A stretch of 64,000 nucleotides of DNA. Source: Plumapathes pennacea. Taxonomy: Eukaryota > Cnidaria > Anthozoa > Antipatharia > Myriopathidae. A program made the translations under genes and the position numbers. The notes under the pieces are model-generated. The model worked only from the letters and a program-made list of their open reading frames with translations, was not told the origin of the DNA and ran no database searches. Shown here in pieces: positions 1,957 to 64,000 of this stretch (its first letter is position 1; the number at the start of each line of letters is the position of its first letter). Where the stretch lies: positions 39,165,680 through 39,229,679 of the forward strand of contig OZ038462.1 in NCBI GenBank assembly GCA_964036295.1, in the 5' to 3' direction.

Positions 1957-1986
1957 CTAGAAGTCGTTGTTTTCTCGCCATTGTTT
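1957..1986 (-). CDS. Receptor exon 104: last nine residues and stop
   Basis: After a strong acceptor (polypyrimidine tract ending tttttcag, with a ctaac branch-like word upstream) the frame reads KQWRENNDF and then TAG. Phase 0 matches the preceding exon. No PDZ-binding motif is apparent at the C-terminus. This is the least certain exon because it is short and rests only on splice signals and frame. Confidence 0.55.
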   Translation of the reverse strand, partial: KQWRENNDF

Positions 1987-13900: not shown

Positions 13901-16900
13901 AACACATTGTAGAATTTGGGCTGTGCCACAACTCCTTACGATTTAAAAGGGCCCTTTCAGCCAATTCAATATTTTTCTTTGCACCTTGAAATGTTTAAAA
14001 AAATTCCAACGCTAAATTTGGATCCCACACAACACGACAAAATGTAACAAATAAACAGCAAAAAAGGTAAGTATATCACAGAAAGAAGGAATATTCACTT
14101 TAAATATTCTTCTTAATGGATCGGATAGAAATGGATTGCTAAATTCATCTTTCGACTTTCGGGGCGCAAAGGACTGTGGTCGAGAAGGCCCCTTTGAGTA
14201 CCTTTGCACTTTTTTCTGTCCGTGCTGAGGTAAAAGCCGGTGTTACAAACGCAGTGATAGCTGCCCGCAGGACTGTTAAAGCAAGAGTGGTCACAGCCGC
14301 CATTGTGAACCGTGCATTCGTCTTGATCTGTTAAAAGTTAAAAATCAGAGAATTAGATTAACATGAGTTACCGGGTAGCGCCAAAATATCGAGTTGTGGC
14401 AGTTCAACATTGAAAAAAGAAGATATAGAAGGAAAAAGTAATTAAGGACAATAAAAACAAAGAGAAACTGGAACACCAAGAACAAGGAAGACTAGGAAAA
14501 CAAGTCGAACACATTCAGCAAGCCGTGTGGCGGAACTTATAAATATAACTAATCCTTTATGAATTGGCTTATGGCGAAAAGCAACGTTTATTTATAAACC
14601 AGTACTTCGATAAAATCACTCTCCTCTATTTTTCCAGTTTTTTAATTTTTGTTTTCACTCAACCAATAAGTTCTGCTCGCAGGGTACCAATCAGTACGTT
14701 GTTCGCAAAACAACAAAATGCACTATATAAAGTGGTTACGAAGCAATATATAAATCATGCTAAAACTAAAGACAATGGGTAGGATTTTCGAAATGCCATA
14801 AGCTTGTTATTAAAAATCAAATTTGAATGACATCAAAAAGTGCCTGGTTAATAATTCTCACCTAAGCAGTCTATCCCGTTACCAATGTAACCTCGCTCAC
14901 AGTTGCATCCAAAGTTTGAACCATTTCTTGAACAGTATGCGTGTGGGGAACATTGCAGAGGGCAATCCTGTCTTGCTGCAAATTAAAAAAAAAAAAAAAC
15001 GCAAAATGGAGATGAAAGGCCGTTCTCACTTGGAGAAAAGACTTGGGTGACTGTACGTTCGTACCTACGACCTCTATGATTCGATACAGGTCCATCTCTA
15101 CCAGTAGGTCTCCCAGCTGGCCTCGCTTGACAGCTAAAGTCAGCGACTTTGTTAACTGGCTCGCATCCGCCTCGAAAACTACCCAAAAGTCTGCCAATGT
15201 GTAACCATTACTGCAGAACAAGAAACGTATCAACTGTGTATACGCACACACTTATCTGACGTTGGGAAGACGACTTGCGTAGGTGTTCGTGTGTTTATTT
15301 GCGTGTTCGTGTAAGTAAGTGCGTGCACACGTACTATGCGTGTTTGTGGAGAACACACTCTGACGTACCTGTTATAAAGATGCATCACTTCTACACGCTT
15401 GAACAGAGGGTCTGTTAAGTAGATTTGATGAACCTGAAACACAAAAAAATCAAAACAGCTCAAGCTCAAAAGATAATACACATGCAGTTGTTTTATGAAT
15501 CGAAGTCCCCCACCCCCCCCCCCCCCCCTTTTTTGCAATGCAAGATAAAACGTACGGCTCTCTCGATAGTTGTAGCCATCGATCTGAACTGGAGGTCACC
15601 ACTTGAACGGTATTCTTCTCTCCACAAGCTGGAAGAGAGGAGCAGCTCGATCTTGAAGGTCTTGCTGAGAACTGTGAAGATTGAACATTCAAACAATTCA
15701 TCATCAGTTACTGTGTGGAGATAGCTGTACGGTCAACTGGCTAGCGCTGCATAATTAAACAAACTATGGCAGATCTCACTCAAGAGCATGAACATTTGCA
15801 TGAAATTATCCTGCGCATACAGCCGGCTCCCGCCGGGTAGCTGTGTTCGCAGGCTCAGATGAAAATTGATCAGAAGCTAAGGCATTTTGTTATTCAAAAA
15901 CATAGTTTTGATCAATTACTATTTCATGGCTTGTGGTTAGTATATATACTGCCGAATATGACCGAATTAGTTTAGATGCTTTACAAAAAATGTAATGGCA
16001 ATCGTTTTAGCGAGAGGAAAATATTTGTTAACAAGTATATAGCTTATAGTTTAGGCTAAAAAAAATAAAGCATGCGTATTCGCTGGCCGCACACTTTGTA
16101 CAGGTGGGCTAGCGGTTAAATAAACAATAAACTACTTTTGGCGAGGAAATATGCACGGATAATTGTCCGAGGATATCATCTGTTCCGAGAAGCGAACAGT
16201 TGCCCGGGAGCGAAGCTCGAGGGCAACTGTGAGCTTCGAGGAACAGATAATGTCCAAGTACAATTATCTGTGCATATTTCCGAAGCCAAAAGTAGTTTAT
16301 TGTCTTTATTATCCTTCAAATATTTCCTCTCGCAGCGCAAATAACGGCGCGGAAACTATGAAGTTTTTTAGTGCTTTCTGGAACTACATTTTCGACCAAT
16401 AAATTGATGTCTTCCTCAGTAGTCGTCTTGTAAGGATTTTTGTGACTAAATAAATAGAACTGTGTTCGGATATTGTCAATAAACAGCGTTAGTTCGCTAG
16501 GCGGGGGTTATTCGCTGATAACGTCCGCTCACGATCGGACATTATTCGGTCACGTGTCACGATTCTACTAATCACGCGCGGGGAGAAATATTTGATGGGT
16601 CATAATGTTTAGATATTAATGTGATCAAACAGTGTCTTCGCAATATATTTGGTAATTCCTTTTCATTACCATTATACCAAAAACTGGTTAATTCTAGACA
16701 CTCTTTATGCAATAGGCCCTGTATTTCTGAGTGGATGTGGTCAAATATTTCGGGACGATAAAGAGACAAAGATACATACACAGAGACACACAAACAGATG
16801 TAGATCATGCACACTTTCCAATGTTATGTCATTTAAAATGTCCCATCTTAGTTATCAATTACGAAAAAAGAAATAAAGTGAACCCTAAAACTGAGACAGG

Positions 16901-19360
16901 AGCAAAGAGATATATAGAGTTTGTTAGATTCGCTCGACAAGCACGAGAATAGTCTCACCAACACATCGTCTTCCATCTCCTCTTGTTCCAGATGTACAGG
17001 AGCAGTTGTAGAAGCCTGGTTGGTTGATACACACTCCGTACAACCCGTGGCAGTCATGCAGACCCTCCTCGCACTCATCAATGTCTGCAAAACACCGTAC
17101 AGCATAAATATAAACTGAGCGTTAGCAAACCAAGACATAGTTAAAAACGAACCAACTGTTAATCACAACAAGTAGTTTGTTACTTTCGTAATGCGGAATG
17201 ATATGTCAGTTACTTCAGTTACCTGCACAAATGAAGCCATCTCCCGAGAAACCACTCAGACAGGTGCAAAAATAAGAGCCCTTTGTGTTGGAACATGTGG
17301 CATCTACGTGGCATTTGTTCCCACCATTCACACACTCATCAGTGTCTAAAATAAATAAACAAACAAACAAACAAACAAACAGACAGACAGACAAAAACTG
17401 AGAGCCTGTAATAAGCATTTCATACTTTACTATCCATAATTTTTCATATCACATATAAATCAAGTTTTAATTCTATTTATAGTTTCTTAGCTCTGACGTA
17501 AAACCTCTCATCAACTTACCTGTACACTCAAAACCATCTCCATGGTAACCATGATTACACGTGCAGTTATAAGATCCCTTAACGTTAAGACAGGAGGCGT
17601 CTGCGTGACACTTGTGGGAACCAAGGGCACATTCTTTTATATCTATATAAACCGTACGTGCTGTTAGTCGTACATAGATACTGCAGATATGTAGACATTG
17701 ACACTGACTCAAGGATAAAAAATAAACAGATGGTATATACATATTAGATTGCCAAAACTATCGATAAATAAAGAATAATTTAAGGTGATTCCCTAGTTTT
17801 GCATTGCGCATCTTTAGTGCGCACAACACTTTTGAGATGGTGGAATTTAAGAACCACCGAAATTTCAAGATCGAAAGTTCTTTATACTCGTTACGCAAAT
17901 AAGTTTTATTTTTCGTCGTTCCTTGTGGAAGCAGCCACCTTGAAAGTTGAAACTCGCCCCAGTCCCCTCTCGGAAAGACGTATTTTGAAGTGAATTCGCC
18001 GTTTCCTGGACAATTGCGCAAAAACGAGCATGGTGACCCCCCTTTTTTATTTCATGTATTTTAAGAAAATACGACTCCCCATGATATATCCAAATTTAAA
18101 CAAAATTTCTTTACTCAATTTTGAAATATTATCATTGAATCACTATTACAATATGTTTTTAGGTGTTTCAGTGCAAGCGTGTAGATGATCAAATTGCCTA
18201 TTATTTCATGGTGACCCCCTATTTTTTTTTTATTTTTTTAATGTACTAGAAGTAATTAATAATCGTGCAAAGTTTTAAGAAAATTCAATTACTATTTCTT
18301 TTTCGATGGAATCACCTTAACATGATAATGTACACACACATACATTATACGCCACGTGCAAGCTCCCTTTTACTTACGTTTCAAAATGTTTTATTTTCAA
18401 ATGAAGGATTCTGCACATGGCCTCGTTTCGAAACGAAAAAGTCAATATGACCATTTATTAAGTAACATTGCCAAGTACACCGATACGCAAATGTGACGTC
18501 ACGCACCTGCACAGTTTAGACCATCTCCGGTGTAACCAGCGTGACATTTGCAGTCAAAAGATCCTTCCGTGTCAACACAATATCCATCTTCGTGGCAGTT
18601 ATGAGAATTCTCAGCACATTCGTCAATATCTGCGTGGGTATCAACACAGTTGCACTCGACTCACACATACACTACAGTGTCAGAGCTTTCAGAGCTGGTA
18701 CAACTACTTTTTTTCTCGATACAATGACCAATAAACTGCGGAGTTCAAAACTGGCTAAAAGTTTAGTTCACGCAAAATATCAACGAAATACTGTTTCAAG
18801 GTTTCGACTTTAGCCCTTTATAAAAGAAACATACCAAACCTTTTGATTCGTTATGACATAAACTACAATACTCCCTCTTAAATACTGCATTTTTATTTTG
18901 AATAATCTGATCATTTTTCCCTCACGCTTTCTTCACCAAAACCTTGAGTGTTTGCTGCATTTCATAATTTTTTTCAGTAGTCAATCAAAACAAGTCAGCC
19001 ACACAAAGGCCTGTACACGTTTTCGGATAGCATATACTCACCGGTGCACGTGACGCCATTTCCACGAAATCCTCTGTGACAAGTGCAGGTGAACGTTCCG
19101 TTGAAATTGGCACAGTCTGCGTTTTTGTGGCAGTTATGTGTGTTGGTAGTACACTCATCGATATCTGAAAGCACGAAGAAGTGTGTCTTAGCTCGGCGAC
19201 CAATAAAAAATAACCAGTAAAACGTTGTAGTAAAAAGTTGTAATTCATATGTTGAAAAATGCATTGATTACGAACTTCTTTCATGATCGTATAATTAATG
19301 TATATGATAATTGATGTTAGCCACTGATTAAATCGTATAAGGATAAAATTGGAATTTAAT

Positions 19361-19395
<35 letters not shown>

Positions 19396-22300
19396 GTCAA
19401 TGCATGTACAGTTTTTATTTGATTAGTCCGAACCATTTGTTTACTTGCAATAAGCCAGTGAACAGTGAGAAGTAAGGCTTTCATAAGTTTCCTATTTTGC
19501 TCACCCAACGCTCGAAACGTCATTATTACGAGCGTTAGGCTATACTTTAAAGTTTACTTGATTACAAAAACAGTTATTGTACATGTTTTCATATTTACAA
19601 AATTATAGTCTTGTTTGTTGAAGCTTGCAGTATTTAAATCTATTTCTTATAAACAATTGAAAAATTAAAATAACAAGCAAACAAAACGCAAAGTAAAACA
19701 ACAGCGACAGCAACAACAACAACAACAACAACAACAGCACAAACAATTTTGTAAGCGTTCCTTCTGTTCTGGTCTAACTCAGAATATCGTTTTAGCTATA
19801 AAAGTATCGCTCCCAACCAGAAAGAAGCCAACGATTTCACATGGAATGCTCTATATAAAATTATTCATCCACAATCATTCATTCAATATATTATTTAGTA
19901 GACACACTATAAGTACGAAAGAAAGAGCAACTTGATCTGATTCAAATTTTATCAATTAAGCATTAATTTAAGTATAGTTACTATACTTAATTTACTTCAT
20001 TTAATTTAAATAAATAAATTTACTAAGTATCAGTAGTTTTGTGCATAACTATGCGCCGTGTGTGTATATACGCTTGACTAGTTCCGTGGTTCGTACGTGT
20101 ATACACATATGAAGGCCTAATCTGGTGTTTCTTTGAAGTGTAGTAGACTAGACATACCAATACACGAAACACCATTTCCTAGAAACCCTTTGAGACATGC
20201 ACATTTAAAAGAGCCCTTGTTGTTGGTGCAGGTGGAGAATATGTGGCAGTTGTGCGCGTAATGTCCGTAGTGGAGCGAAAGGCTCTCCGGCGAACACTCG
20301 TTAATATCTGTGAAAAAAAAAAAAAAAAAAGAGAGAGAGAGATATTTATTTGTATTAATTCAGTTTAACCTATGGGTGTATTTGTACTTGACCTATGCTG
20401 ATGTAAAATTTTCGTTGCTTCAATAGGAGACATTGCTTTCATTGAATGCTATACATAAAACATGGGTTCATTATGGCGGCGGTATATATGTACTAGACTA
20501 TACTATACTTTTACCATCTTTTAGAAAATATCTGCTCTACCTTACGTTGCACTCTTCTAGTACTTAGCATGTTCTGAATTCTCATACTTTTACCAACAAA
20601 TTATGTAATGTTATACTTCCATGGTAAACCAAATGGCACTCACCAGTGCACGTGACTCCATCTCCAGAGTATCCCGTGTGACACGTGCAGTAAAACGAAC
20701 CCTTGGTATTGGTACAGTTGGCGTCAGTGTGACAATTATGTGTCCCAACAGCACATTCATCGATGTCTAAGTATACAGGCGAAAATAACTGTCATGATCA
20801 GACTCATATCCTCACTTCCACCGCAACCTCTATCTAATCTGAATCAACGCCAGACAAACAGTAACAAACGAGTATAACACTTGTCAGCGTAGAGTAATAG
20901 AATTACAAAGTTTGGGTTGGTCACTAAAATTGAGATAATGATTTTAAAAATAGTTAAATGTGGAGGAAAATTTTTGTCAGTGATGGTTTCTGGATATATA
21001 TATTACCGACACAAGTGACTCCATCTCCAGAGTATCCCGTGTGACACGTGCAGTAGAACGAGCCCTTGGTGTCGGTGCAATTGGCGTCAGCGTGGCAGTT
21101 GTGAGCATAGTGTCGATGTTCAGAAGCCAGGTCCTCGCTCATGCACTCATTGATATCTGAGAGAAAGACAAACACATTTTTCTTTTGAACCTCCTGACCA
21201 GACAAATATGTGTTGCAGAGGTTCAGAAGACATAGATATCAAACGATCTTGGATAGGCACAGTTTTCGATAAAAGAAAGAAATTGTTACAGAAGTAAATT
21301 TCTAACTTCTTCCACTACTGCTAAGGTTTGTTTGTAATGCAGTTTCACAAGTTAAAATAACTATGCAGTGGTATAGTAAGGGTTTCCTTGATCTAAGATT
21401 CCATCATCAATGGATCCCTTTTATACTGCAAGGATCATTAGTGTAGCTGCGCTTTATTATAAAAAAAAATACTCTAAAATAATGAAATAAAGAAGCAAAA
21501 TTCACAAGCAGCATTTCGCGAACAAATATTCCTGCTCTAACAGTTTAAACTAAAAAAAATTGGAAGTCAACAGAAAGAGAATGCTTGAAACGTTGAACGT
21601 TTTTATATGCTAACTGACTCGGGCATAACCAGTCGTTCTTACCTACACACGTGACTCCATCTCCAGAGTATCCCGTATGACACGTGCAATAGAACGAGCC
21701 CTTGGTGTTGGTGCAGTTGGCGTCAGCGTGACAAATATGAGAGTAGTTGCTATGTTCGGCCGCTAAATCGTCTGGTCTGCACTCATTGATGTCTGGAGAA
21801 GACAGCGTGGTAATGCTTTATCTGTTGGCAGTTTTTATTTATTGACTAGCCTTTTTTATAACTACTTGAACCACCAGCAGCTAAATTTCAGTGTTTTGAT
21901 AAAGATTTCTGAACGCATCAAAATAGTTTCATCAATGAAATATGCTGTTTGCGAAAACCGATAATCGATACGTTGGAAATATTTCAATGGAAAGACATTG
22001 ATTCAGTTCGATTTATGCTAAATTATCAACCCAGGACTAAAGCATTTCGTCACACTTCTGTTAACGCGGTATAAGGTACAGACTGAAACACTTTGAGTTT
22101 AACTTAAATACGTACCCTCACATATGACTCCATCTCCAGAGTAGCCTTTGAGACACGTGCATTTGAAAGAACCCTTTGTATTGGCACATTCAGCGTCACT
22201 GTGGCAGTTATCTGTGCCAGTAGCGCATTCTGGGATGTCTAAAATAAAGAAAAAACAGTGCTCATAGGTTAAAATTTGTGAGGTGCTAGAGCAGTTAAAA

Positions 22301-43300: not shown

Positions 43301-46300
43301 CAAAGTTTAATGGATTCACCGGCAACATAAAAGCTACATCTGGTTATATTCTGTAGTATAAAATACCACCCTGTAATCTGGAAGTAGGGTAGGTTAAAAT
43401 TGAATGCCTAAACCTTACCTACACACGTGACTCCATCACCAGAGTATCCCGTGTGACACGTGCAGTAGAACGAGCCCTTGGTGTTGGTGCAGTTGGCGTC
43501 CCGGCCGTGACAGTTATCAGTTCCATTAAGACATTCATCGACGTCTGAAAAGCAACCAGGATGTTTTCTCGAAATTGTTAGTATAACTAAAACTGGTCTC
43601 CCCCAATGGCTTTCGATTCACTATCTACAGGAACTGTGTGATTGTTTTGGCTTTACGTTTCTTACGATCTTTGATTGGTCTGAACAAGCCTTGCCAAATG
43701 GACCAAATGCAAAGCTAATTGCAATTTGATCAAGAAAGCAAGAGGTGATGGCGTTTCTTCGCACTGCTAATTACCTTCTAGCTTTAAACTAAAACCAATT
43801 GCAAATTACTTCAGCTTTTGATCGATTGAAAATTATTTTCTTACATGCACCTGTCGTTATCTTGGCGCTTTAATTCAGTTCTTTGGTTCTTGAAGTCAAT
43901 CAAAAACTTTGCGAGATGTAGGTCGAAAGTACAAAGTTTGTCATGCAAGAAAACCGCACACGAAACATGCAGATTCAAATATAAAAGACTAAAAATATAT
44001 AATAAGATTTGACCTGGGAACGCCCTTGGCGTCTGACGTCGCACCATGCTCATGCAACACTAGTAAGTAAGTAGAATTAATAAAAAAATAGTATGCAAGC
44101 GAAAAGTCTGAATGTGAGTAAGTATGACGATTGCCCATAATGGATCAGGAGCAGTGCTTGTATAGTGAAATGTAAATCTTACCGCACAAAGACCTTACCT
44201 CATGGCGCAGAAACTTACCTAAGCACGTGACTCCATCACCAGAGTATCCCATGTGACACGTGCAGTAGAATGAGCCCTTGGTGTTGGTGCAGTTGGCGTC
44301 AGCGTGACAGTTGTGGTGATAAGCAGCGTGTTCAACAGAAATGGTATTGGGTGTGCATTCATCAATATCTGACAGATGATCAGAAGAAGGGAAAAAAGGG
44401 GTACCAAGAGATAAAAAAGCAAAAATTAGACAAATTACAAAGAAATGAGAAAAAAGGAGTTGGAGGCAAAAATTATGGAAAGGAAAGGAGACAGAACAAT
44501 AAAGAGAACAAAAAAATGTAAGACAAGAGGATGACAAGAACAAGAAAAAGGACAGAAACAAAAAAGACGTTGAAAACATTCATCCAACAACAAGAATAAT
44601 GGAAGAAACATGACACTGGCGTGACTTTGGACCCCTCTCCGCTTAGCAAATCCCCTTACAAGATGCATCGAGACCGATGACGTTTTAGCATATGCTGGTG
44701 TCAGTGAAAGATAACGTTAACGTTAACTAAACGTTAACTACAAGTCAGTATGCGGTTTAACAGGACAAAGAATGCTAAACATAGTATGAATTCCAAGATG
44801 TCGTCCCTACCTACACACGTGACTCCATCTCCAGAGTATCCCGTATGACACGTGCAGTAGAACGAACCCTTGGTGTTCGTGCAGTTAGCGTCAAGATGAC
44901 AGTTGTGACGATAACGACTGTGCTCTGAGGCTAACTCATTTGGACGACATTCGTCGATATCTGGAGTAAAAGAGGCGTTAAAGAACTGGCGATTACTCTA
45001 GTTTAGTTAACAAATAAACCAGCTTCAAGCGTGCTCCGTTCAGAAATAAAGCACGCAGCAAGTGACGAGAGCACGAAAGAAGTGTAGGGAGAAGGCGAGC
45101 GTTTTTCCCCACTTCTTGAGTGCTCTCGGCACTTGCTATAAGTGCTTTATTTCTGAACGGAGCACGCTTGAAGCTGGTTTATTTGTTTTATACCATAGAA
45201 CTTCAAAACTTTCACAATAAGACTGTCTTTATTCATCAAAAATGTTAGAATGCTAACAGCGATGAAAAAATAGATTCTCCTAAACGGCTCGGCGGTCCGA
45301 ATTTGCCAAGTCAGTACAGTTTCGCTTCAATTTTTCACCAGGCCGTCTGTTCTATAAAATTAGCCCTTAAACGGCCAATGGGGTCGTATACGACCCCAAG
45401 AAGCGTGACCAACAAAATATTGTGTTATTTCGTTGCCACGTAACTGTTCATGCGTGCAATGCCCCCTGGGATTGTTGTCATGCAATCGGACGCGTGTTCA
45501 TCGAAGGAAGTCGAGTTCTTGGTCGATTTTTTCGCGATTTTCGGACTCTCTGTGTGTATTTGGACTTTAAAAAAACATGGCGGATGCGAGATGCACTGCA
45601 GATGGAAGTTGTGGGGCTAGTCTTAGGTGATTCCGATGAAAAATTCACTGATTGCGACGAAGCATTTATTGCCGATGTGACAGACGAAGGACAGACGACT
45701 GTTTACACTGCTAGAACACGGCAAAATATCCCGCTACACGAAAGAGAACCTTCTGATGACCGACAACGAAGTGAATTCGATAGGTTTGGTCCTATATTTG
45801 TCGAGAAATCGTATTTCTGATTGCAAACTCGAAACAGATTATCGCCTAACTCGTGTTTTGATTTATCATGAGGTCGCAATTACCCTGTAGGCTTCGGTTG
45901 AAAGTGAGAATGATCAAGAATATGAACCAGCCGGTAGAAGCATTCAAGATGGCTGCCAAGTCAACTTGTGATTATTTTAGTTTCATCGAGACAGTTTACA
46001 TTTTCTTCACAACTGTTTTATATTTTGTTCCCTGTATGTTTGTGGATATTTTCAGAGGTGTTAGTTTGAATTTGTTTGTTGTCTGGTGTTTTGAGAGCTG
46101 CCATGAAAGCCAAGATTATAATATTTTTGCCGTTGGTGAAGTAATTTACTCAGATTTGCTGACCATAATCATCTTGTCAGTACTGATAATGAGTTGCAAG
46201 CATTATTAGAAGTACTCTTTAGGTTGTAAGCTTTCCAAAAATGTATACTTTTGCCCAGTTATAATTCACTTGGAAAGAAATATTTGATTAAATGTCAGCT

Positions 46301-49300
46301 CAGTCTGAATTGTTTTCTTTTTCCGGGAAAAAATTTGGCCGTCTGAGGGGACAACATCTCTCAGTAAAGAACTATATTTCCTGTAGAACTTTGGACTACA
46401 AGTACATAAAATTATACAGTCGGTTAGTGCATAAAATGCAAATTTGAAGGGAATCAACAAATGCTCCAACGGCCGACTCGAAAATTGTGTGAATGAAAAC
46501 TTACCGATTTCTTGACTCTACCTCGTAGTACAATCATTTGAGGTACGTCCGAAAATTCTTCAATCATTTTTTTCAGTCACATCGTCGGAAATTCTTTCTC
46601 TTGCATCACTACAAACACGTCTGTTCGTCTGTCTTCACCGTTCATGTTCAGTGATTGCTCACGGCTGATCTTCTTCAACTGAATGATTTGCTCTCTCCTT
46701 CCTTGTTGAAGCATTCAACTTCATTCAAACAACCCACTGATGTAATTGTGACTCCCAAATATGCTGTACTTAGGGAGAGTGCTTAAACCGAGTCGCTTTC
46801 CACGACGCTGACAAGAAACTTGCCGTTCTTCGACATAGATTTTCCCTCTCCAAACTGTTGAAGTGCTTTTTGATGAGGTCACGTTCTTTACCGATTCACG
46901 GTGAACCGTACTAGCCGGTGCCTTCACTTAAAGCCAAATTTTATCTCGAAGTTGGGCATTGGTGACTACTGCATTCTCGCATTATTTTCTCTTTTTTGCC
47001 AGAGGATGACGTAAGCGTGGTTTATAACTTATGAACCACGGGTAAGTGTGGTTTATACTCTGGCAAACCACGGTTTTCGACCAATCAGCGCGCGGCTTGT
47101 ATCGTGACTATGTTATAATATAGTTTAGTACAGTTTAGTACAGTTTAGTGCAGCACGGCACAGCACAGTATAGACGTATAAAGTTGGTCGAAACATAAAT
47201 CCATTTAAATGGAAAAAGCAAATACTGCATGACACAAACGTAAAACTAGTTACCAACCAGCACACGCAAATCCATCTCCAGAGTAGCCGTTATTGCACGT
47301 ACATAGAAAATGGTTTTCTGTGTCAGTACATTGAGCGTCAGCATGACAGTCATGAGTATTCATGTTGCACTCGTTCATTTCTGAGATAAAAGGAGAGAAA
47401 AGTCAATATTTTAACCAGGGCTAATACTTTTTCAAGTCCAAACCCATCCTCCTCCAAAATTTCCATTTGTCGTATTTATCAATTGTTCAATCCACAATTG
47501 TTAGATTGGTGAGGTAGGAAATTATGAGATAGTTATAAGATAATCGGTACAATACGAGGCAACTTCTCGCACTTTTCGGCCAATGCATATGGTTTTATGC
47601 AGTCCTGCATAAAAGGTATCCTTACCTTCACAATGAACACCATTTCCGGTGTGTCCATCGATGCAAGAACAAGAATATGAGCCCACGGTGTTTGTACATG
47701 TTGCTTTTGCGTGGCAATTATGAGCGTTGAGGGCATGGATGGATGCAAGGTCGTCTGGAGCACACTCATCAATATCTAGGCGTGGGTAGACGCATATTAA
47801 GAATAGTTGTATTGTCCTAAGTTGATCTTCACGAAAAACACTCGTACATTTTGGACAATTTTAGCTTCAAACGTTGGCCTGCTATAGATACACAAGAAAA
47901 CATATTAACAGCTACAAAACCTCCAGCAAGCACACCAAAACAAACAAGACCTACAGCTGAAAGTACAGAAACAATGTAAAACCTATAGGATCAGAAAAGT
48001 GGGTCTGGAAAATTTAAACAGCAAAAAAGAGGTATGGGGAGGAGACGACTGACATTTGAGACTAACAGCAAATCAAAATAAGCGAGATCATAACAGGGAA
48101 AATACAGGGGAGAACTCTAAAAATGTACAACTGTATACAAGTAACTGACGTTTATTGTGAAGTATACAGAAGTAATGGTGTTTCTTACCCACACACGCGA
48201 CTCCATCTCCAGAGTATCCGGTGTGACACGTGCAGTAGAACGATCCATTGGTGTTGGTGCAGTTTGCATCAGAGTTACAGTTATGTGTTTCAACAGCACA
48301 CTCATTCACATCTAAAATAATTTGTAAGAAATGGGCTCTTAGTGTCTAGACATAATCTTATATAGTACATTTAATATTAATATTTTTTTATATAAAATTA
48401 CATCAGAGAATCTTTCAAATGTCGCACATATTAGACTTTTTGTAAGCAATTCACTGTACTTGAAACTCGTGAACGAAACAAGAACATATAAAAGTAAGAT
48501 GGGGTTCACAATCAGAGATTTATTGTACAATTATGGGCAAATAACTCACCCACACACGTGACTCCATCTCCAGAGTATCCCGTCTGACACGTGCAGTAGA
48601 ACGAGCCCTTGGTGTTGCTGCAGTTCGCGTCAGTGTGACAGTTGTGCACAAGATATTTGTATCCTTCCGGAATATCCTTCGGGATGCATTCGTTGACATC
48701 TGAAGAATATAAAAGAGATTTTTAAATTAACTTTTATTTGAGGTACTAGTGTTGTAACTGTGACGAATACATATAAAGTTCTCAAAGTGCAAGAATTATA
48801 ATAATCTAGAAAATAACTTTTGTTTACATTTTAAAGCAATCATAGGCAAGAGCTCTTGTCATGACTCTCTACTCGTGGCTCGGATGAACAATTAAAATGG
48901 CGGTCTCGTCTCTGGATCGAAAAAATAAACAAACGAACAAACACGGGGATGTAAAAAAACACTCAGTGCCTGTAGCTTTGAGCATCTTTATGGAAACCCG
49001 CTCCCAGAAAACCGACAAAGAACGTTGCTTTGATTTGACCCAATAAGCCTAACAAGAGTGGCATGCAAAAACAATTTCATGTACAAATAGCAATGACAAG
49101 GACAAATAACAGAATAACAGCGGCTTATAAGTAGCTATGAGAATACGAATGGTATAGAACCTGACAGGTGCCTTGCTTACCAGTGCACGTGACTCCGTCA
49201 CCAGAGTATCCCGTGTGACACGTGCAGTAAAACGAACCCTTGGAGTTAGTGCAGTTGGCGTCAGCGTGACAGTTGTCTAATTCTCTTCCGCACTCGTCTA

Positions 49301-52300
49301 TATCTGTAAGGTAACTGCTTTATTTTAAAGAACATGACAGAACTTGAAAGAGGAGCTTTAGAGTATTTAAGATAAAGGTTCAGATCTTGCATCGAACATC
49401 AGCACACATAAAAGAAGGTATTAGCATTTTATTTATCATGGCTGTCTAATTTGTGCTGGTTACCGTAATTATTCATTACCTTCTTAATTAAACTTGATAT
49501 AAAATTGAATTAAAAACAATGTAAACTCCATCCACGACGACAACACCAACAACATTGCCAGTAGAATAAGACAAATCTTTCATTTGAGCAGGAACACCTG
49601 TCGAGTTGTTTTCTAGATTAACCACATTTTACTTTAAATGACAGTTAACTGACTAAAAATACCTGTGAAGGGTGCCGGATAATCATAAAGTGCTGACGTT
49701 CATGTTAATACGCTTTGAAACGCAAAAAGGGATCTACGGACCTGCGCACGTGACTCCATCTCCAGAGTATCCCGTGTGACACGTGCAGTAGAACGAGCCC
49801 TTGGTGTTGGTACAGTTAGCGTCAATGTGACAGTTGTGGACGAGGTGCTGATAATCCACAGGTATGTGAGAAGGATTGCATTCGTTGATTTCTGGCAAAA
49901 AAAATGGAAAGATTATATCATAAGTATAAGCATATAAGCTTTAACAAAGTATTAAGGTGACGTGGTTTCTGTTTTCCTGTTCATCTGTCGGTCAGAAAAC
50001 ACGGTTATTGAATCCTTGTATCCTACGATTGATATCACGTTTCTGTATTTATTTACCTTTCGTAAGTCAATCACGGCTTCTTAATATGGCAAAATTCCAA
50101 ACCACGACCACTGACTACATGAATATCAATAAAACAAGTATAAATTCTGGCTAAATCACAGCATGTCCACTTTAAAATGATAATATAATAATGTAGTGTG
50201 ACTAACTCTTCCTGCTGTGCCCCACTAAAGCAATATGGCCAACAATATACCAGTTACACTCACCCAAGCACGTGATTCCATTTCCAGAGTATCCCGTGTG
50301 ACACGTGCAATAGAACGAACCCTTGGTGTTGGTGCAGTTGGCGTCAGCGTGACAGTTATGGTTGGGACCCAAAGGACTTGGAACACATTCATTGATATCT
50401 GTAGAGCATTGTTTACAAAATGAAAAATACGATGATTTAATATAATAAATTTATGCAACACTTGCAAGTAAATTAACTGCAATAGGTTGTTGGGATATTC
50501 ATTAATACATCACCCTGGAAGTCGGCAGAGAGTTCCGCGAGTTTACCTTCACACATGACTCCATCTCCACCGAAGCCTTCTTTGCAGGAGCAGTAAAAGG
50601 AACCTTTGGTGTTACTACAGTTCGCCTCAATATGACAGTTGTGGTGGTAGTGCGCATGCGCTGATTGCAGTCCGGAAGGTGAACATTCGTCAATATCTGC
50701 AGGAACAACGAAAAAGAAATGGAATTAACACCAAGGACTTTTGTCAGATTAAAATAAAAGAAATCCATCTGTAAAATTCTACTTTGATAGTACTTCCAAA
50801 ATTAAAAACCGAATAGACAACTTCAGAGAAACTGCAGAAGTGTCAAAATTACGATCTAATTTGGAAAAATGACGCTAAGAAGAATTGACACGTTTACTAA
50901 CCTACACACGTGACTCCATCTCCAGAGTATCCCATGTGACACGTGCAATAGAACGAGCCCTTGGTGTTGGTGCAGTTGGCGTCATAGTGACAATTGTGAT
51001 TCAGGTGGCTATGTTGGGGACTCAGCGAACTTGGGAGGCATTCATTTATATCTGAAATATAACAATTCAGTCGTGAACTGAACTAAAGGAAATTTCCAGT
51101 AGTCCCCACTGACGCATCAGCTTATCCTGTACACAAACGTCCTGCAATCCGTTACGTCACTGAAGTGTAAGTCGGTGCATATTCAGCTCTCTTTAGAAAC
51201 CAGCCGATATATGAATCGAACAAAAACGTACCCAAGCAAGAGACTCCATCACCAGAGTATCCCGTGTGACACGTGCAGTAGAATGAGCCCTTGGTGTTGG
51301 TGCAGTTGGCGTCAGCGTGACAGTTGTGAGCATCTATGGTGCATTCGTCAATATCTGGTGTTTTAGAATTTAGGCAGAGAATTATTGAATGAATAACTCG
51401 AGTACAGAAATGGAGGATAGCAAGTACACTACTCGACTAGGAATATATTCTGTTAACATATGTATTTCAGTTTAAACAGAAAGGTTACAAAACCTTACCA
51501 ACACAAGTGTGAATTACGTGAATTACATAATGTGTGAACTCACATCGAGTTTTAATGAATTTGCTTTGAACTTAAATCGTGCAGCCACATCAAACTGTTG
51601 TTACTTATAATACCTCTGCATGAGACTCCATCTCCAGAGTATCCCGTATGACACGTGCAGTAGAACGAACCTTTGATGTTCGTGCAGTTGGCGTCTGCGT
51701 GACAGTTGTGTGTTGCAACAGCACACTCGTTGATATCTGTCATTTAAAAACTATAGTTAAAAAACTTAAGTTAAGTTTAGTTATTCGACTTATAGAATAT
51801 GAGGGCACAGCCCTCACATTTGCCTTTCGCACTAGGCCCCGTTTTGAAACGAGACAACAGGCATCTGAGAAATCCCCTATCTAATTATTGATAAATTTGT
51901 TCTGAAGCTTCTGTCAAACATGTGTGAACTTACATCGAGTTTTGATGAATTTGCTTTGAATTTAAATCGTGCAGCCACATCAAACTGTTGTTTACTTATA
52001 ATACCTCTGCATGAGTCTCCATCTCCAGAGTATCCCGTGTGACACGTGCAGTAGAACGAACCTTTGATGTTCGTGCAGTTGGAGTCAGCGTGACAGTTGT
52101 GTGTTGCAACAGCGCACTCGTTGATATCTGTCATTTAAAAACTATAGTTAAAAAAACTTAAGTTAAGTTTAATTATTCGACTTATAAAATATGAGGGCAC
52201 AGCCCTCACATTTGCCTTTCGCACTAGGACTCGTTTTAAAACGAAACAACAGGCATCTAAGAAATTCCCTATCTAATTATTGATAAATTTGTTCTGAAGC

Positions 52301-55300
52301 TTCTGTCAAACATAATATGTGAACTTACATCGAGTTTTAATGAATTTGCTTTGAATTTAAATCGTGCAGCCAAACCAAACTGTTGCTGCTTATAATACCT
52401 CTGCATGAGACTCCATCTCCAGAGTATCCCGTGTGACACGTGCAGTAGAACGAGCCCTTGGTATTCGTGCAGTTGGCGTCAGAATGACAGTTATGGTTTC
52501 CAATGTCACACTCGTCTATATCTGTAAACACATTACCAGCCAGAATGATGTTTATAGTTATTACTCTGGTTAAAACGTTTGTATGGTATTGTGAAAATTC
52601 CCGGAAGCATTTAGTACTTCAATCCGAGATAAAATTGTAATGTATGCATCCCCTGACGATTTCGACGAAACAAGACGTAACATTCAAAGTAAAAAAATGC
52701 TTATTTTACTGACCACGCTCTCAAACCAAGTTTTTGTGAAATCAGTATCTTTGTCTTTATGTGACTGTTTTGACCTTTCACAATTTATCAAGCTTGGATA
52801 ACGATTCGAGGCTTCAAGAAGCCTAAAAAAGGAATACATTACAATATCAATCCTTCGATAACTGTTGTTAAATTTAATCTGGAGTATAACCGCATTCACT
52901 ACAGCTACTGCGAAACCAATCGTATTAATTTTGAATTTCCAATGTCACAGTAACTTTAACTAAAACAGCGTCCGCCATATATTAACGGTAGATCGTAGCT
53001 CCTTCGATAGAAATCCTTCAGGCTAGTTTGGTGGCGTCGCGGAGTAGACTAAATGAGCATCCAGTTGCATACAAGAAAGGACTCGTATTGTAAAACGTAC
53101 CCTGACACGTGACCCCATTTCCCGCGTAGCCGATGTTGCACGTGCACTTAAATGAACCTTTGGAGTTTAAGCAGCCAGCATCTCCATGGCAGTTGTGCAT
53201 GTCTGTGATGCATTCGTCAATGTCTATAAAGAAAGTAAAGGACCAGAAATTATTGTCCGTATTAGAGAGGTGCCCGTAATATAGAGGACATTGATAAGCT
53301 GTTATACTTTGATCATAACAAGTTGCTGGGTGATAATGAAAATTGCCAAATGCAATTCTTACTGCTAAAGAAAGGACGATGGATAACATTTTTATGGCCA
53401 GTATCACTCTTTTAAACAGGAAAATGCTTTTTTCGCTTATTACAGTCAGTGTACTTTGTCATTGTATTCAATTGTCCGTAATAACGAGGTAGAGTATGTA
53501 CTGCTGCCGAGGTTTCGTTTCCGTTGTCCGTATTTTAAAGGGACCGTATTACAGAGTTTTTTCTTAATGGAAAGCATTTATTATGGTAATTTTGACGGGA
53601 CCAAAATGACTGTCCGTAACATAGAGGTGTCCATAAGGAGAGTTTTGACTGTATTAGGAGGTTTTGCCCTGCGAATGCACGGAAAGAAATCTGTACAAGA
53701 TCAAGCAGCGCTACTTTTATTGTATATTTCGCTTTCCTAGTTAAAAATGCAAATATCATATGTGCGAATGTTTCTCGAATAGCGTTACGAGTTATTTTTG
53801 GTGTCACAGTGACTGAAGAAGACTGGAATTAAGGTCTTCTAAACAAGGTGAAAAAATCACAACTGCAAGTACTGTGGAACCTCTACTTTGGGACACCTCC
53901 ACTTTAAGGGACACATTTCTTTGTCCCCCCCCCCTCCCCCCCAAAAAAAAGGCCCATACAATCCTTCTATTTATTAGCTCCATTCAAGGGACACCTCTAA
54001 TCAGGGGACACTTTTCCTTGTCTCGAGGGTGTCCCCTTAATGGAGGTTCCACTGTAAACTATATTGATACAATAATCGTTTCGTTAAGTAAGTCAAATAT
54101 TGATTTACGTGACTAAAATCACATCATAGCAGAACTATGGTACAAACATATATCATCTGACATACCCACACACGTGACTCCATTTCCAGAGTATCCCGTG
54201 TGACACGTGCAGTAGAACGAGCCCTTGGTGTTAGAGCAGCTGGCATCAGCGTGACAGTTATGTAAATCATGGCTACGAGGCAAGCATTCGTCGACATCTG
54301 TCAAAAGAAGTCGATGAGTAGTTATTCACACGCTATGATTTTCTGTAATTTCTGGAGAAAAATTAGCTTCGATTATGATTTTAAAATCTCTCACAGAAGG
54401 TTTAAGGTCTCAGTATAAGTCCATCGTCGCATTCACCTCAAATTTGACACGATAGTTCATTATTATATTAAATCTCCAGCCATTGGACGGTAACAATTTG
54501 TTAGCGATTAAACTGCAATTTAAAAGTGCGTTGAGTACTAAACGGAAAGGTAATTATCTCGATCCTTGGGATATTCGATTCTTTCGTGCTGTCTGCTCTG
54601 ACAAGCCACATAGGCCGTCCAACAACTACAGATACTCTTGATTCATGTATAGACTGGCGTATCTTGCCTACACACGCGACTCCATCTCCAGAGTATCCCG
54701 TGTGACACGTGCAGTAGAACGAGCCCTTGGTGTTGGAGCAGTTGGCGTCAGCATGGCAATTGTCCGTATTGATCAAGCATTCCTGGATATCTGGCAACAG
54801 AAAAATTGATTAAACCGTTTCTTTCATCTCATTTTCTTTGTCAAAGATATCAATAAAAACGGATCCTCACCAACACACGTGACTCCATCTCCAGAGTATC
54901 CCGTGTGACACGTGCAGTAGAACGAGCCCTTGGTGTTGGAGCAGTTGGCGTCAACGTGACAGTTGTATGAGTAATGCATGTTGTCAATAGAAAGTCCTTC
55001 AGGATTGCATTCATTAATATCTGCGGCAACAAAGAAACCAAACCAAACATGAGTATTTGTAGTAGAATGCAAAAAGAACTGTTGCACTGAGAGGCCATTT
55101 TAAAATTAAAAATAATACTGCAACCTCCCGATTGATCTCAGAAGTATAAAAAATGGCAATAGTTTATTTTGCACCTACTTTGGCTATGTTACATGAAAAG
55201 AAAATGGTTACAAGATGTTGTTCGGTGCAAGCTAACTGTAATAACCAGAGGCTAGACTAGACAGTTAGCTGCTTAACATACATTTACATATGAATATGGT

Positions 55301-58300
55301 CAAAAGATAAGCGTACACAACAACAACAGCAACAAAAACAAACAGATGGTTAGGTAGTACACACACACATATACTGTACTTCCACCCTCTTACATCCAGC
55401 GCACACATGTAATGTTTCCGTCCATTCACTCACCCACCCACATATATTTACCACATATATTTATAATATTTGATAGGATGGTCATAAATAATTATTATTA
55501 TTGCTATGGAAAGAGGTACATAAGAGCTAACTAAATTACTATAAGTAATGATATATGCATAATATATTTCTTGCATAGAAGTTGACAATTCCTAGTGGGC
55601 GATGGTTTGAGAAACGTAAATGAACAATATTATATTTTAATATTGTAGAATAAAGTTTATACCGGAAAAAGCTGATTATTAGTGCATTTCTTAATAGAAC
55701 GTCAAATGGGGACCCATCATCACATTTTCAGAATTTACTGTAATGGTTAATGCAACTTTAAAAGTCGGTGTTTCTCGTTATTTGGGACACCAATCCTCCG
55801 TTAATTCATTAAAAAATTCTTTAGGATGATTCAAGCCAATTGGTTTTCTGCCTCCTTATAAACACCGACGAGTAGCTAACATGGTATAGAAACTTAGCAG
55901 GTGCTCTACTCAGAACAATGTACATTTGCCTACCGGTGCACGTGACTCCATCTCCGGAGTATCCCGTGTGACACGTGCAATAGAACGAGCCCTTGGTGTT
56001 GGTGCAGTTGGCGTCAGCGTGACAGTTGTGATGATAAATCAGGTTATCAGAGGGGAGAGTTTCATGAGAGCATTCAACTATATCTGGCTCAGAAGAGAAA
56101 AAAATTCTTGTTGTTAAGTCATTAGAGGTGGCAAACTAACTAGGTAAGTTGAGTTGAGCAGTCTATAAAAGCTTTTATAACATAGTCACGATACAAGCCG
56201 CGCGCTGATTGGTCGAAAACCGTGGTTTGTCAGAGTATAAACCACACTTACCCGTGGTTTATAAGTTATAAACCACGCTTACGTCATCCTCTGGCAAAAA
56301 AGAGAAAATAATGCGAGAATGCAGTAGTCACCAATGCCCAACTTCGAGATAAAATTTGGCTTTAAGTGAAGGCACCGGCTAGTACGGTTCACCGTGAATC
56401 GGTAAAGAACGTGACCTCATCAAAAAGCACTTCAACAGTTTGGAGAGGGAAAATCTATGTCGAAGAACGGCAAGTTTCCTTTCAGCGTCGTGGAAAGCGA
56501 CTCGGTTTAAGCACTCTCCCTAAGTACAGCATATTTGGGAGTCACAGTTACATCAGTGGGTTGTTTGAATGAAGTTGAATGCTTCAACAAGGAAGGAGAG
56601 AGCAAATCATTCAGTTGAAGAAGATCAGCCGTGAGCAATCACTGAACATGAACGGCGAAGACAGACGAACAGACGTGTTTGTAGTGATGCAAGAGAAAGA
56701 ATTTCCGACGATGTGACTGAAAAAAATGATTGAAGAATTTTCGGACGGACTTCAAATGATTGTACTACGAGGTAGAGTCAAGAAATCGGTAAGTTTTCAT
56801 TCACACAATTTTCGAGTCGGCCGTTGGAGCATTTGTTGATTCCCTTCAAATTTGCATTTTATGCACTAGCCGCCTGTATGATTTCATGTACTTGTAGTCC
56901 AAAGTTCTACAGGAAATATAGTTCTTTACTGTGAGATGTTGTCTAATTTTATAGAACAGACGGCCTGGTTGAAAAATTGAAGCGAAACTGTACTGACTTG
57001 GCAATTCGGACCGCCGAGCCGTTTAGGAGAATCTATTTTTTCATCGCTGTTAGCATTCCAACATTTTTGATGAATGAAGACAGTTTTATTGTGAAAGTTT
57101 TGAAGTTCTATGTTATAAAACAAATAAACCAGCTTCAAGCGTGCTCCGTTCAGAAAAAAAGCACTTAGCAAGTGCCGAGAGCACTCAAGAAGTGTGGGGA
57201 AAAACGCTCGCCTTCGGCTCGCGTTTCTCCCCACACTTCTTCCGTGCTCTCGTCACTTGCTGCGTGCTTTATTTCTGAACGGAGCACGCTTGAAGCTGGT
57301 TTATTTGTTAATTATTATATGGCACTGATACTACGCACGCTACGATTGGTTAATTTACCGGTCCATACTTTCCTGTACGGACCGCAAATTGATTTTACGC
57401 ATGTTCTGATTGGTCAATTTTACCGTTCCATAACTTACTGTACGGACCGCAAAATTAGTTTGTACATGTGGATCGCAAATGATTACTCGAAAAGTTGCTA
57501 AACTTTTGTCATAAAAGGCCCAATGCAATGGGAAGTTTAAACGTTCCGGATACTCACTGTTAAGTTACAATCTTGGAAAATGACCGTTACGAAGAAGGAA
57601 AACATCCGAGGGAAAAATTGCTTGCGACCTCAGCCGTCATTGACAACAAGTGCTGCAGAGTATGGAGGGTTGTTTCACCCTGTGTTAAAATGTGCACACT
57701 TGCCAGGAAGAAAGTGGAAAGCGAACAATCACCGTGAACAGTTATGACTAAAACCGTGCAAGAATCAAGTTTTGCAGACATGTTTGCTCGTCATGGCGCA
57801 CTGTGAGGACTGTAAATATATTTTTTATAATGCACGAGAACTCTGTATTTCGAAATCACTGACTGGGACAAAAACGCCGTGGTGATTTGAGGACGTTTAT
57901 TTTGCTGGAAGAAACCTAAACGCTCCACGAGGAGGCAGGAAAATTAAGCGGTGAGTTTTGAATAATATAACTTTCAACGATGTGTCGGTCGCAGTTTGTG
58001 ATGAAATGATTTTCTTTTAGTGCCATTTTGCCTCCCACGTTATTGTATGTGTAAGAAACTTATTCAAAAGAATAAAAAATACTCTGAGTTACAAAGCAGT
58101 TTCTTCTGGAAAGAGATAAGAGTGCAGTTTTTTTTTAATCTTTAGTGAGCGAGCAAGGGCGAGTTCGAGTCGTTCACCGAATAAAGTTCACTGCAGTGTC
58201 GTTGTTTGACACACGCTATCGGCCATTTCATTCAGCTCAGAACAAATTAGTATTCATCTAGGCAGTTGGTTCGACATACGCTTATTTTTTTTCAAGATTT

Positions 58301-61300
58301 ACAAATCGGTAGAATTGTAAGCTGTTAACTGAATTTGTTGTGAAAACAAACGTGCGTAATTCATGCCTGATCGCGATTGATGTTGAATGAACGAGACGAG
58401 TACTCGTTGGGGCCTTGTTTTGTGTTTGCCGAAAGATCTAAAGCCATATAATAAATATCTTATAAACCTCGTTTGCTTGGTCCGTACAGTAAGTTATGGA
58501 TCCTCGTTTTTTTCGTCGCCTTATGGCCCTCGCGCGAAGCGCGCTCGGGCCATAAGGTGATGAAAAAAAAACTCGGTCCATAACTTACTGTACGGACCGC
58601 GCGCTCGGTTAATAAGATCTATGTACTGCACAGAACTCTCAAGCAAAAGATCCAGTGAGAAACACGAAGTTTTTTTATTAAATCTTGTGTGTTCTAAATA
58701 TGCCTGGTCAGTATCTGCAATACAGCACTCTGTCATTCTATTTCTAAGAATGTGATGGAAATATTCCAACTTACCTACACACGTGACTCCATCACCCGAG
58801 TATCCTGTGTGACACGTGCAGTAAAACGAACCCTTGGTATTGGTGCAGTTGGCGTCAGTGTGACAGTTATGGCTGAGGTGACTGTGTTGAGGATCCAAAG
58901 AACTTGGAACACATTCATTAATGTCTGCAGAACAATGTTTACGTGAAATAGGCAGAATAAGAGAGCACGTTCTAAAGTTATATACACCATTCTTTGAAAC
59001 ATAATGTCCATGTAAGCATTCTGTCATAAAACTAAGGACAAAGTCCGCGGTTTACCTTCGCACATGACTCCATCTCCAGCGTAGCCTTCTTTGCAGGAGC
59101 AGTAAAAGGAACCTTTGGTGTTACTACAGTTGGCGTCAAAATGACAGTTATGGTGATAATGCGCGTGCGCTGCTTGCAATCCAGAAGGTGAACATTCATC
59201 GATATCTGCAGGAACCAAGACAAAAACAAAGGTAATTAAGTAATTAAAATATTTGGATAAATAGAGGTTTCTCGCTATTCCCCCAGGCAATGGGACCAAG
59301 TTCATGAAAATGGAGACACATATTGACACATAAGGGCTTCTTGTTATGTCCCATGGCTATGTAGCTTAGTTCAAGCGGTGCCAAATGTGTCGATGATGCT
59401 CACATAGCTAGCTAACGTAAGGTTCATCTACATAACACCTTGAATTTCCGTTTCTTTGGCAGAATTGCGTTTAATTTGAAAACATACTGTAGCTCCGAAA
59501 ATATTTAACAGCTTACCTACACACGTGACTCCATCACCAGAGTATCCCGTGTGACACGTGCAGTAAAACGAGCCCTTGGTGTTGGTACAGTTGGCGTCAG
59601 TGTGACAGTTATGGCTGAGGTGACTGTGTTGAGGATCCAAAGAGCTTGGAACACATTCATTAATGTCTGCAGAACAATGTTTACGTGAAATAGGCAGAAT
59701 AAGAGAGCACGTTCTAAAGTTATATACACCATTCTTTGAAACATAATGTCCATGTAAGCATTCTGTCATAAAACTAAGGACAAAGTCCGCGGTTTACCTT
59801 CGCACATGACTCCATCTCCAGCGTAGCCTTCTTTGCAGGAGCAGTAAAAGGAACCTTTGGTGTTACTACAGTTGGCGTCAAAATGACAGTTATGGTGATA
59901 ATGCGCGTGCGCTGCTTGCAATCCAGAAGGTGAACATTCATCGATATCTGCAGGAACCAAGACAAAAACAAAGGTAATTAAGTAATTAAAATATTTGGAT
60001 AAATAGAGGTTTCTCGCTATTCCCCCAGGCAATGGGACCAAGTTCATGAAAATGGAGACACATATTGACAAATAAGGGCTTCTTGTTATGTCCCATGGTT
60101 ATGTAGCTTAGTTCAAGCGGTGCCAAATGTGTCGATGATGCTCAAATAGCTACCTAACGTAAGGTTCATCTATATAACACCTTGAATTTCCGTTTCTTTG
60201 GCAAAATTGCGTTTAATTTGAAAACATACTGTAGCTCCGAAAATAATTAACAGCTTACCTACACACGTGACTCCATCACCAGAGTATCCCGTGTGACACG
60301 TGCAGTAGAACGAGCCCTTGGTGTTGGTACAGTTGGCGTCAGCGTGACAGTTGTGATTCAGTTGACTATGTTGGGGACTCAGGGAGCTTGGGAGACATTC
60401 ATTTATATCTAAAATATAACAGTCCCTGCTGGTCAGTTGTACACCAAGGAACTTGTTATTGTGCAGAGTGCAATGTGTTGTGCTGACGAACTCCACTGTA
60501 ATCTATAACTGGTGTATTTCAAGCAACTGAATGTTAGCGTAATTTCTGATTCATTTGATACAGAAACTAAGATGACTGCTGCTAAACACGCTAGGTCATT
60601 AGTAAGGCAAACGCCATCTCTTCGCCTCTCAACTCGTTTATTTCAATGGATAAAAAAATGGCCATCTCTTCGCTCCAATATGGACCAGTCCACCGCATCA
60701 CCTCACCACTTTATCACGATCACCACCAATCAACGTTTACACAGGTGCCATTCACTGATTGATCAGCGAAGGAAGCGAGTAGAGGTCTGGATCGATGTGC
60801 TTGTGCGGGTGCAAGTGCAGACTGTTCTTAGAAATACATTTCAAGGAAGAGGTGAAGATCGTTAATTCCGAATTGAAAGCAGACTACTCTGAAATCCTCC
60901 AACATACCAGCTATTGTACTTTGTCACTTTTACGGAAATGTTCACCTGCAATTATTATGAAATGGTGAAGTTACTTTAAAGTTATGATAATTAATCAACA
61001 TGGCCAGAAAACACATAAAACAGTCCTAAGTGAATGCATTGCTATCGACCACAGCTATCGTAAAAATATAGGGGCCTTGATTTTGCAGTTATAAAATATG
61101 TACAGTCATTTACATCAAAACCGCTTTGTGTCACTTTCAGAAAACAAAAAATCAAATTGGAGGTTTGAAATTTTGAAACATATGTTTGGCGAACAAATTA
61201 ATCTTTCACGAAAAGGGACAAAAATCAAAGTTCTCACCTGGTTTTCGATGACTTGTACGTTACTTCATCGGCGGAATCCGAAACAAGACGACTCAGTTCG

Positions 61301-64000: not shown

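Follow-up and report, generated by a model that had tools for sequence, protein, structure and literature searches.

The window, the whole stretch of 64,000 nucleotides that was analyzed (G000:C1:39165680-39229679; genome 290 Mb, 24 contigs), carries on its minus strand 105 exons that join in one frame and end with TAG at 1957; the one at the window edge (base 64000) is truncated. In order, these comprise 78 EGF exons, SEA, two EGF domains, HRM, GAIN, GPS, 7TM and a tail. The original prediction of a giant EGF-containing adhesion GPCR in one frame was borne out by Pfam-supported domains and by matching splice sites and phases, and the single frame stood, although 104 joined exons had been counted instead of 105. 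All domains that it listed from SEA to the tail were present, but two CUB domains and a WSC-like exon (10170-9880) had been missed. The features of the gene within the window are as follows:

16959..64000, minus strand: array of 78 EGF exons of 123-153 nt each, the first cut by the window edge, with two more just upstream
15671-15556, 15433-15369 and 15210-15065, minus strand: SEA, three exons (phases 1-0, 0-2 and 2-1)
14862..14975, minus strand: first EGF domain after SEA (best stretch of the Pfam EGF_3 match, whole-protein E = 8.9e-8)
14202..14327, minus strand: second EGF domain after SEA (six-cysteine EGF spacing read from the sequence)
13571-13458 and 13108-13005, minus strand: HRM (hormone receptor) domain, two exons (Pfam E = 1.8e-6, 28.7 bits, cut-off 26.2)
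12409-12203, 11929-11861, 11176-11026, 10621-10472, 9329-9251 and 8608-8473, minus strand: GAIN exons
10170-9880, minus strand: WSC-like module on one phase 1-1 exon of 291 nt, inserted inside GAIN
8151-8099 and 7899-7776, minus strand: GPS and Stachel sequence, two exons (H-M/T-S-F-A-L-L-M, the slash marking the predicted cleavage site)
7486-7377, 6854-6755, 6282-6126, 5905-5839, 5584-5521, 5122-5007, 4400-4274 and 3542-3501, minus strand: 7TM, eight exons
2924-2787, 2404-2318 and 1986-1957, minus strand: cytoplasmic tail exons (stop TAG at 1957)

The next 100 kb past the window edge were also taken for completing the model. As predicted, the gene continues there: upstream of the window lie two further EGF exons, one CUB domain encoded by a single exon and another split over two, and a plausible start 8,873 bases beyond the edge, on a first exon (MTMKRHLLAVTLITMALNT) that ends in phase 1 and was judged to be signal-peptide-like by hydropathy alone, as were all signal peptides. 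The hydropathy scan found two ATGs within this start exon. Pfam recognized the two CUB domains of the head (4.7e-50 together). The completed model has 111 exons over 70,917 bases, with 14,856 coding nt, 4,951 amino acids and no internal stops. In the hand-checked model of 107 exons (80 EGF exons from 65123 to 16959, of which 78 touch the window, and 27 further exons) the acceptors were AG in 107/107 and the donors GT in 105/106 and GC in 1/106 cases; across all 111 exons, too, every acceptor was AG, every donor GT or (one) GC, and the phases matched. Below 16958 all 27 exons were set or re-checked by hand, as were those of the upstream head, and since exon boundaries were partly set by domain sense, a few (13005, 5839) could be off. 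Candidate polyadenylation signals (AATAAA) were found at 1769 and 1762, 188 and 195 nt after the stop.

An automatic exon-chaining script recovered the array, but its chain ran into unrelated upstream genes and small false exons. Eight script exons inside 16950-65200 were discarded (starts 64892, 62842, 57437, 56716, 47956, 45707, 29823 and 25400), and four were corrected (starts 63669, 50696, 47754 and 47380).

The next gene downstream starts at about 300-75 of the window, on the minus strand (MAEGNSGQVKWTHLDSKQL), and looks as if it encodes a protein-tyrosine-phosphatase-type protein. On the other side, about 88-155 kb from the window start, the exon chain contained several tandem genes on the minus strand, with exons that look like those of SLC6 neurotransmitter transporters. 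By eye, a reverse-transcriptase-like stretch (PQGSVLGPLLFLIYINDIF, plus strand, L009 ~5010-5080) was seen in the intron that splits the first CUB domain.

Judged from the DNA sequence, one gene of about 71,000 bases very probably encodes an adhesion GPCR of about 5,000 residues with 80 + 2 EGF domains, and it would be expressed as a single transcript. With the same high confidence we read the full order as signal peptide, CUB, CUB, 80 EGF, SEA, EGF, EGF, HRM, GAIN with a WSC-like insert, GPS, 7TM and a short tail.

The EGF array

At least 80 EGF domains had been predicted, and 78 + 2 in the window together with the two array exons upstream agree with this number. All array exons (80/80) are symmetric, with phase 1-1. 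They fall into length classes of 123 nt (n = 32) and 150 nt (n = 36), with 12 exons of other lengths, and in the longer class additional residues separate cysteines 1 and 2. Six cysteines were found in 79/80 array exons and seven in 1/80. The seventh cysteine lies in the EGF domain at 24495-24373, which reads GSFCCTC instead of GSFYCTC, so that a thiol would be left unpaired or an unusual disulfide formed.

Scanning with a profile made from the EGF exons of the window itself gave 79 matches at i-E < 1e-3, on the minus strand only, corresponding to the 78 array exons and the first EGF domain after SEA. The best plus-strand match was 0.063, and each of 20 first-order Markov shuffles gave 0 matches. 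As this profile was self-trained, Pfam was taken as the independent test: EGF_3 and EGF_CA matched at E <= 0.001 in 77/77 complete in-window array exons, the 78th, cut at base 64000, lying outside the set. The full calcium-binding consensus was found in 64/80 array domains; calling all 78 exons calcium-binding EGF domains had therefore been slightly generous. The Asp/Asn-hydroxylation pattern was kept in 79/80 domains.

Among the 1,140 pairs of array exons of equal length, which are not independent of each other, pN was below pS in 99.8%, with a ratio of medians of 0.37 over the whole exon. The last 27 codons were strongly conserved (pN/pS of medians 0.22, 3,160 equal-length pairs), and the first part of the exon was looser (0.39, 1,140 pairs). 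This substitution pattern looks like purifying selection.

Two large introns of the array contain inverted, near-identical copies of a 769 bp sequence (46350-47118 and 56175-56943, 98.3%), next to which lies another inverted pair (45007-45363 and 56943-57311, 93.5%). These copies are probably a mobile element.

The receptor end and the WSC-like insert

On the spliced protein, Pfam detected SEA with E = 5.6e-8 (33.3 bits, cut-off 26.4). In a comparison by eye, the G-S-V-V-V-type self-cleavage motif of SEA was absent, the matching stretch being N-G-Y-T-L. Unspliced whole-genome searches for SEA and HRM (7 and 1 matches, respectively) did not list the gene's own domains, which are split over exons. 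For the second EGF domain after SEA, FXa_inhibition (EGF-like) scored 30.8 bits (cut-off 33.4) and cEGF 20.2 bits (cut-off 26.6), both below threshold. GAIN was recognized with 8.9e-10 on the longer part, and among solved structures the HRM-GAIN part matched BAI3 (4dlo, E = 9.4e-19) and latrophilin-1 (4dlq, 4e-15).

The GPS domain (Pfam E = 4.6e-10) contains an H-X-T motif followed by a tethered-agonist-like sequence; H-X-S/T is the cleavage motif described for the adhesion GPCR GPS (PMC13062082), and TxFAVLM is given as the agonist consensus (PMC12716839). Cleavage at H-M/T would yield an N-terminal product of 4,593 residues, signal peptide included, and a C-terminal product of 358. The 7TM domain matched Pfam 7tm_2 with E = 3.7e-37 over profile positions 4-249 of 250. 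Compared with solved structures, the GPS-7TM part scored best with ADGRL3 (7wy5, 7.3e-56), then ADGRD1 (5.7e-49), with ADGRE5 further down (4.6e-27), and chains with little beyond the 7TM gave 2.8e-45 for L3 and 2.8e-22 for E5; this ranking compares constructs of unequal length, the best E5 chain being interrupted by a fusion partner, and is not a tree. By its secretin-type 7TM, the GAIN domain directly before it, and the GPS motif with agonist, the predicted protein is an adhesion GPCR (class B2).

The exon at 10170-9880 alone matched Pfam WSC with E = 1e-4 and 22.9 bits, below the curated cut-off of 27.8, and is therefore called WSC-like. The match was weaker in longer queries (0.007 and 17.0 bits in the HRM-GAIN part; unlisted for the 1,069-aa part). 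A PDB sequence search with this exon returned no convincing match (best E 0.57). Without the exon the GAIN score of the HRM-GAIN part was 46.7 bits, vs. 41.6 bits with it (E 3.3e-12 vs. 1.2e-10), a gain expected of any insert relative to the profile. Judged by eye in the 4dlo alignment, the residues after the insert resume the BAI3 stretch VFVLGAVLYKNLDLILP, and the insert appears to sit just before what should be a strand. Relatives of the exon occur elsewhere in the genome at least 61 times (32-57% identity), some in tandem; tandem clusters were seen at G000:C11:5.69 and 6.77 Mb, C7:14.1 Mb and C1:10.63 Mb. Exon shuffling, which would have placed a common module in an ancestral phase-1 intron of GAIN, is the best explanation for the insert. 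Its expression would mean that GAIN can accommodate an entire foreign module while retaining the GPS motif and the agonist sequence, and would thereby limit how GAIN folding and agonist release can be modeled.

Other receptor loci were also encountered in the genome. A 581-aa open frame with 11 EGF_CA domains (G000:C8:2631431-2633176, L020 6432-8177) is followed on the same strand, some 5 kb downstream, by GPS and 7TM matches and is perhaps part of a smaller EGF-type adhesion GPCR; EGF domains before GAIN-7TM may thus not be unique to the present gene. No array of the present kind was seen at this C8 locus (2.63 Mb; EGF, GPS and 7TM matches), nor at C5:0.70 Mb, where a weak WSC-like match (31%) accompanies a GPS match. 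At G000:C5:22.906-22.937 Mb, a tandem cluster contains seven 7tm_2 matches; in every case a single open frame (476 to 1,114 aa) spans the complete 7TM.

Products of the locus

Just upstream of the gene, at 83029-76423 (outside the window, in coordinates that run on from its start), lies a second head of eight intact exons encoding a signal-peptide-like exon, CUB, CUB and four EGF domains. It shares 59% identity with the gene's own head over 420 codons, with dN/dS of 0.19 and dS of about 1.7 (near saturation), the pattern of purifying selection. Between the two heads there were no EGF matches above 12 bits, and no 7tm_2 among the matches listed. The last exon of the second head ends in phase 1, so that splicing to the common array is possible; when read through, it continues with GTVHWELTFHCGA and then a stop, and the first AATAAA follows at 75534. 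The second head could be an alternative 5' end or a small secreted CUB-CUB-EGF4 relative.

The locus may accordingly give several products: the full receptor, forms of variable length that skip EGF exons, and a second head that is either spliced onto the shared array or yields the small secreted protein. We regard this reading, which is compatible with a single receptor, as possible though somewhat doubtful. In its favor, the symmetry of all 80 array exons means that any set could be skipped with the frame kept, the second head is intact under the low dN/dS given above, and isoforms of CD97/ADGRE5 differ in EGF number, from 3 to 5 (PMC13197933, PMC8191316). Intact exons and purifying selection fit either fate of the second head, however, and its dS is near saturation. 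Moreover, symmetric exons are common in EGF proteins. Rather unlikely in our view is the further reading as a modular mechanoreceptor of tunable length, with a fibrillin-scale array of about 80 EGF exons, each of them skippable, a choice of two CUB-CUB-EGF4 heads driven by separate promoters in the manner of the clustered protocadherins, and the WSC-like module as an extra control point on agonist release. If this were true, array length would vary among cells and among individuals.

Alternatively, the region could hold two genes, one for a secreted matrix protein, CUB-EGF80, that ends after EGF80, and one for a shorter receptor, SEA-EGF2-HRM-GAIN-7TM, that starts in the last intron before SEA. 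This intron (16958-15672) is long for the gene: at 1,287 bp it ranks fifth in size among the 106 introns of the 107-exon model, whose median is 366, but a dispersed repeat (16605-16117) makes up about 490 bp of it. The original prediction had named a separate promoter and signal peptide just before SEA as a sign of two genes, and one hydrophobic ATG exon with a phase-1 donor was indeed found there (16808-16670), outside the repeat, which has at least 43 further near-full copies elsewhere in the genome (88-97%). Two AATAAA motifs (16310 and 16301) and an in-frame stop reached about 11 codons into the readthrough of EGF80 would also suit an end of the upstream gene. Both AATAAA motifs, however, lie inside the repeat, and the donor of 16808-16670 scored 6.9, vs. 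a mean of 8.75 for the array donors. Ten such ATG exons occurred in 164 kb of the plus strand and ten in 80 kb of the minus strand outside the gene, from which 0.08 (plus strand) to 0.16 (minus strand) would be expected by chance in this intron. Besides the two ATGs of the start exon, the hydropathy scan from 72873 to 15672 found four ATG exons with a phase-1 donor and a hydrophobic stretch, 16808-16670 being one of them; 72234-72099 and 47353-47254 overlap coding exons in other frames, and 36792-36666 lies in the intron before an array EGF exon, a candidate similar to 16808-16670. Both 36792-36666 and 16808-16670 could in principle serve as weak alternative starts.

Against two genes, the EGF80-SEA junction (exon 17084-16959 to 15671-15556) has good splice sites and matching phase, and the frame is continuous from the signal-peptide-like exon to a single stop, in agreement with the predicted single gene. 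A second promoter before SEA is unlikely, and we consider two separate genes improbable.

Paralogue searches addressed the join between array and receptor. With the SEA-to-GAIN part as query (93/244 candidates scored), matches outside the window ran through the EGF portion only. The WSC-to-tail query (76/317 scored) gave 78 matches; of those outside the window, 61 fell on the WSC-like exon, six on part of the 7TM (33-35% identity) and one on part of GPS (42%); the WSC-like exon may have crowded out relatives of the 7TM here. A compact sister gene that would prove the join was not found among these scored candidates.

Three pairs of direct blocks within the array reflect recent duplication:

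58759..60410, minus strand: tandem duplication, 58759-59668 vs. 59499-60410, 96.3%
33557..37176, minus strand: second duplication, 33557-34287 vs. 36450-37176, 93.5%
51530..52525, minus strand: third duplication, 51530-52131 vs. 51920-52525, 92.4%

That false tandem copies from an assembly error have inflated the array is highly improbable. In favor of such an error are the duplicated stretches of 912, 736 and 607 bp and the identical coding sequences of array exons 8 and 10. Yet in the 83 kb compared no direct pair other than these three reached 250 bp and 85%, the copies differ clearly more than false ones should, and more than 70 EGF exons should remain even after removal of one copy of each. 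The duplicated blocks suggest that the array is still growing or being homogenized.

Proposed mechanism and comparison with known receptors

In the single-receptor reading, the EGF array, mostly of the calcium-binding type, would act as a long, stiff tether and keep the CUB head well away from the cell surface. The spacing of EGF domains is just under 3 nm per domain, so that a tether of 80 would measure on the order of 200 nm. Stiffness and a rod-like shape are expected of paired calcium-binding EGF domains (PMC3306419). The head or the array would bind the matrix or a neighboring cell and pass force or binding on to GAIN; the tethered agonist TSFALLM, cut free at H-M/T, might then be exposed and activate the seven-helix bundle. 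In current models, adhesion GPCRs are switched when their long ectodomains are bound or come under force. Here we infer the rod shape, a ligand and cleavage at GPS from the predicted protein, and a force-driven activation by analogy with known adhesion GPCRs. As precedents, the CUB/pentraxin part of ADGRG6 binds collagen IV and the extended CUB of ADGRB3 binds C1ql3 (PMC13197933), and for CD97-CD55 it has been proposed that tensile force is carried by EGF domains (PMC8191316). With roughly tenfold the EGF number of CD97 or CELSR, on exons that can each be skipped in frame, the present receptor would be a natural test case for how ectodomain length relates to sensitivity.

EGF, CUB, SEA and HRM are all among the domains of adhesion GPCRs in general (PMC12716839). 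In the open-access literature we found no adhesion GPCR of this architecture or EGF count, which agrees with the earlier view that EGF-SEA-EGF-HRM-GAIN-7TM on this scale is undescribed; automatically annotated orthologues may well exist. The ectodomain fits none of the named adhesion GPCR subfamilies compared. The ADGRE or EGF-TM7 receptors (CD97/ADGRE5, ADGRE1-4) likewise carry tandem EGF domains ahead of GAIN-GPS-7TM, but the present protein differs by about 82 EGF domains and by CUB, SEA, HRM and the GAIN insert. Nor is its 7TM closest to ADGRE, as phmmer placed L3, D1, L2, L4, G6 and G2 chains above E5 (an order of unequal constructs and not a tree, with which the 7TM-only chains agree). 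Latrophilins (ADGRL) share the HRM-GAIN-7TM core and include the best-scoring solved 7TM (L3, 7.3e-56). Their hallmarks are lectin and olfactomedin domains, none of which appeared in Pfam scans of the head, tail and array exons.

SEA is also present in ADGRG6. This receptor (GPR126) further resembles the present one in that its tip is formed by CUB, with HRM-GAIN lying close to the membrane (PMC13197933). It differs in that the 80-EGF array and the WSC-like insert are found here, and its 7TM scored E = 1.4e-31, behind L3 and D1; Pfam scans gave no match to pentraxin, so that CUB and HRM are present without the CUB-pentraxin-HRM-GAIN order of ADGRG6. In CELSR/Flamingo, EGF domains also occur in a very large adhesion GPCR, with 7 calcium-binding EGF motifs in Ciona CELSR (PMC2396169), while its cadherin and laminin-G domains had no match in Pfam scans of this gene.

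Two further comparisons lie outside the adhesion GPCRs. The WSC of polycystin-1 lies apart from GAIN, whereas here the WSC-like module is inside GAIN, in a protein with a 7TM. Polycystin-1 is an 11-helix protein that combines WSC and GAIN (PMC9672506). Fibrillins have similarly long arrays of calcium-binding EGF domains (PMC3306419); their TB and hybrid domains were absent from the Pfam results, and in contrast to fibrillin, which is without a transmembrane part, the array here ends in a GPCR, with the 7TM in the same frame.
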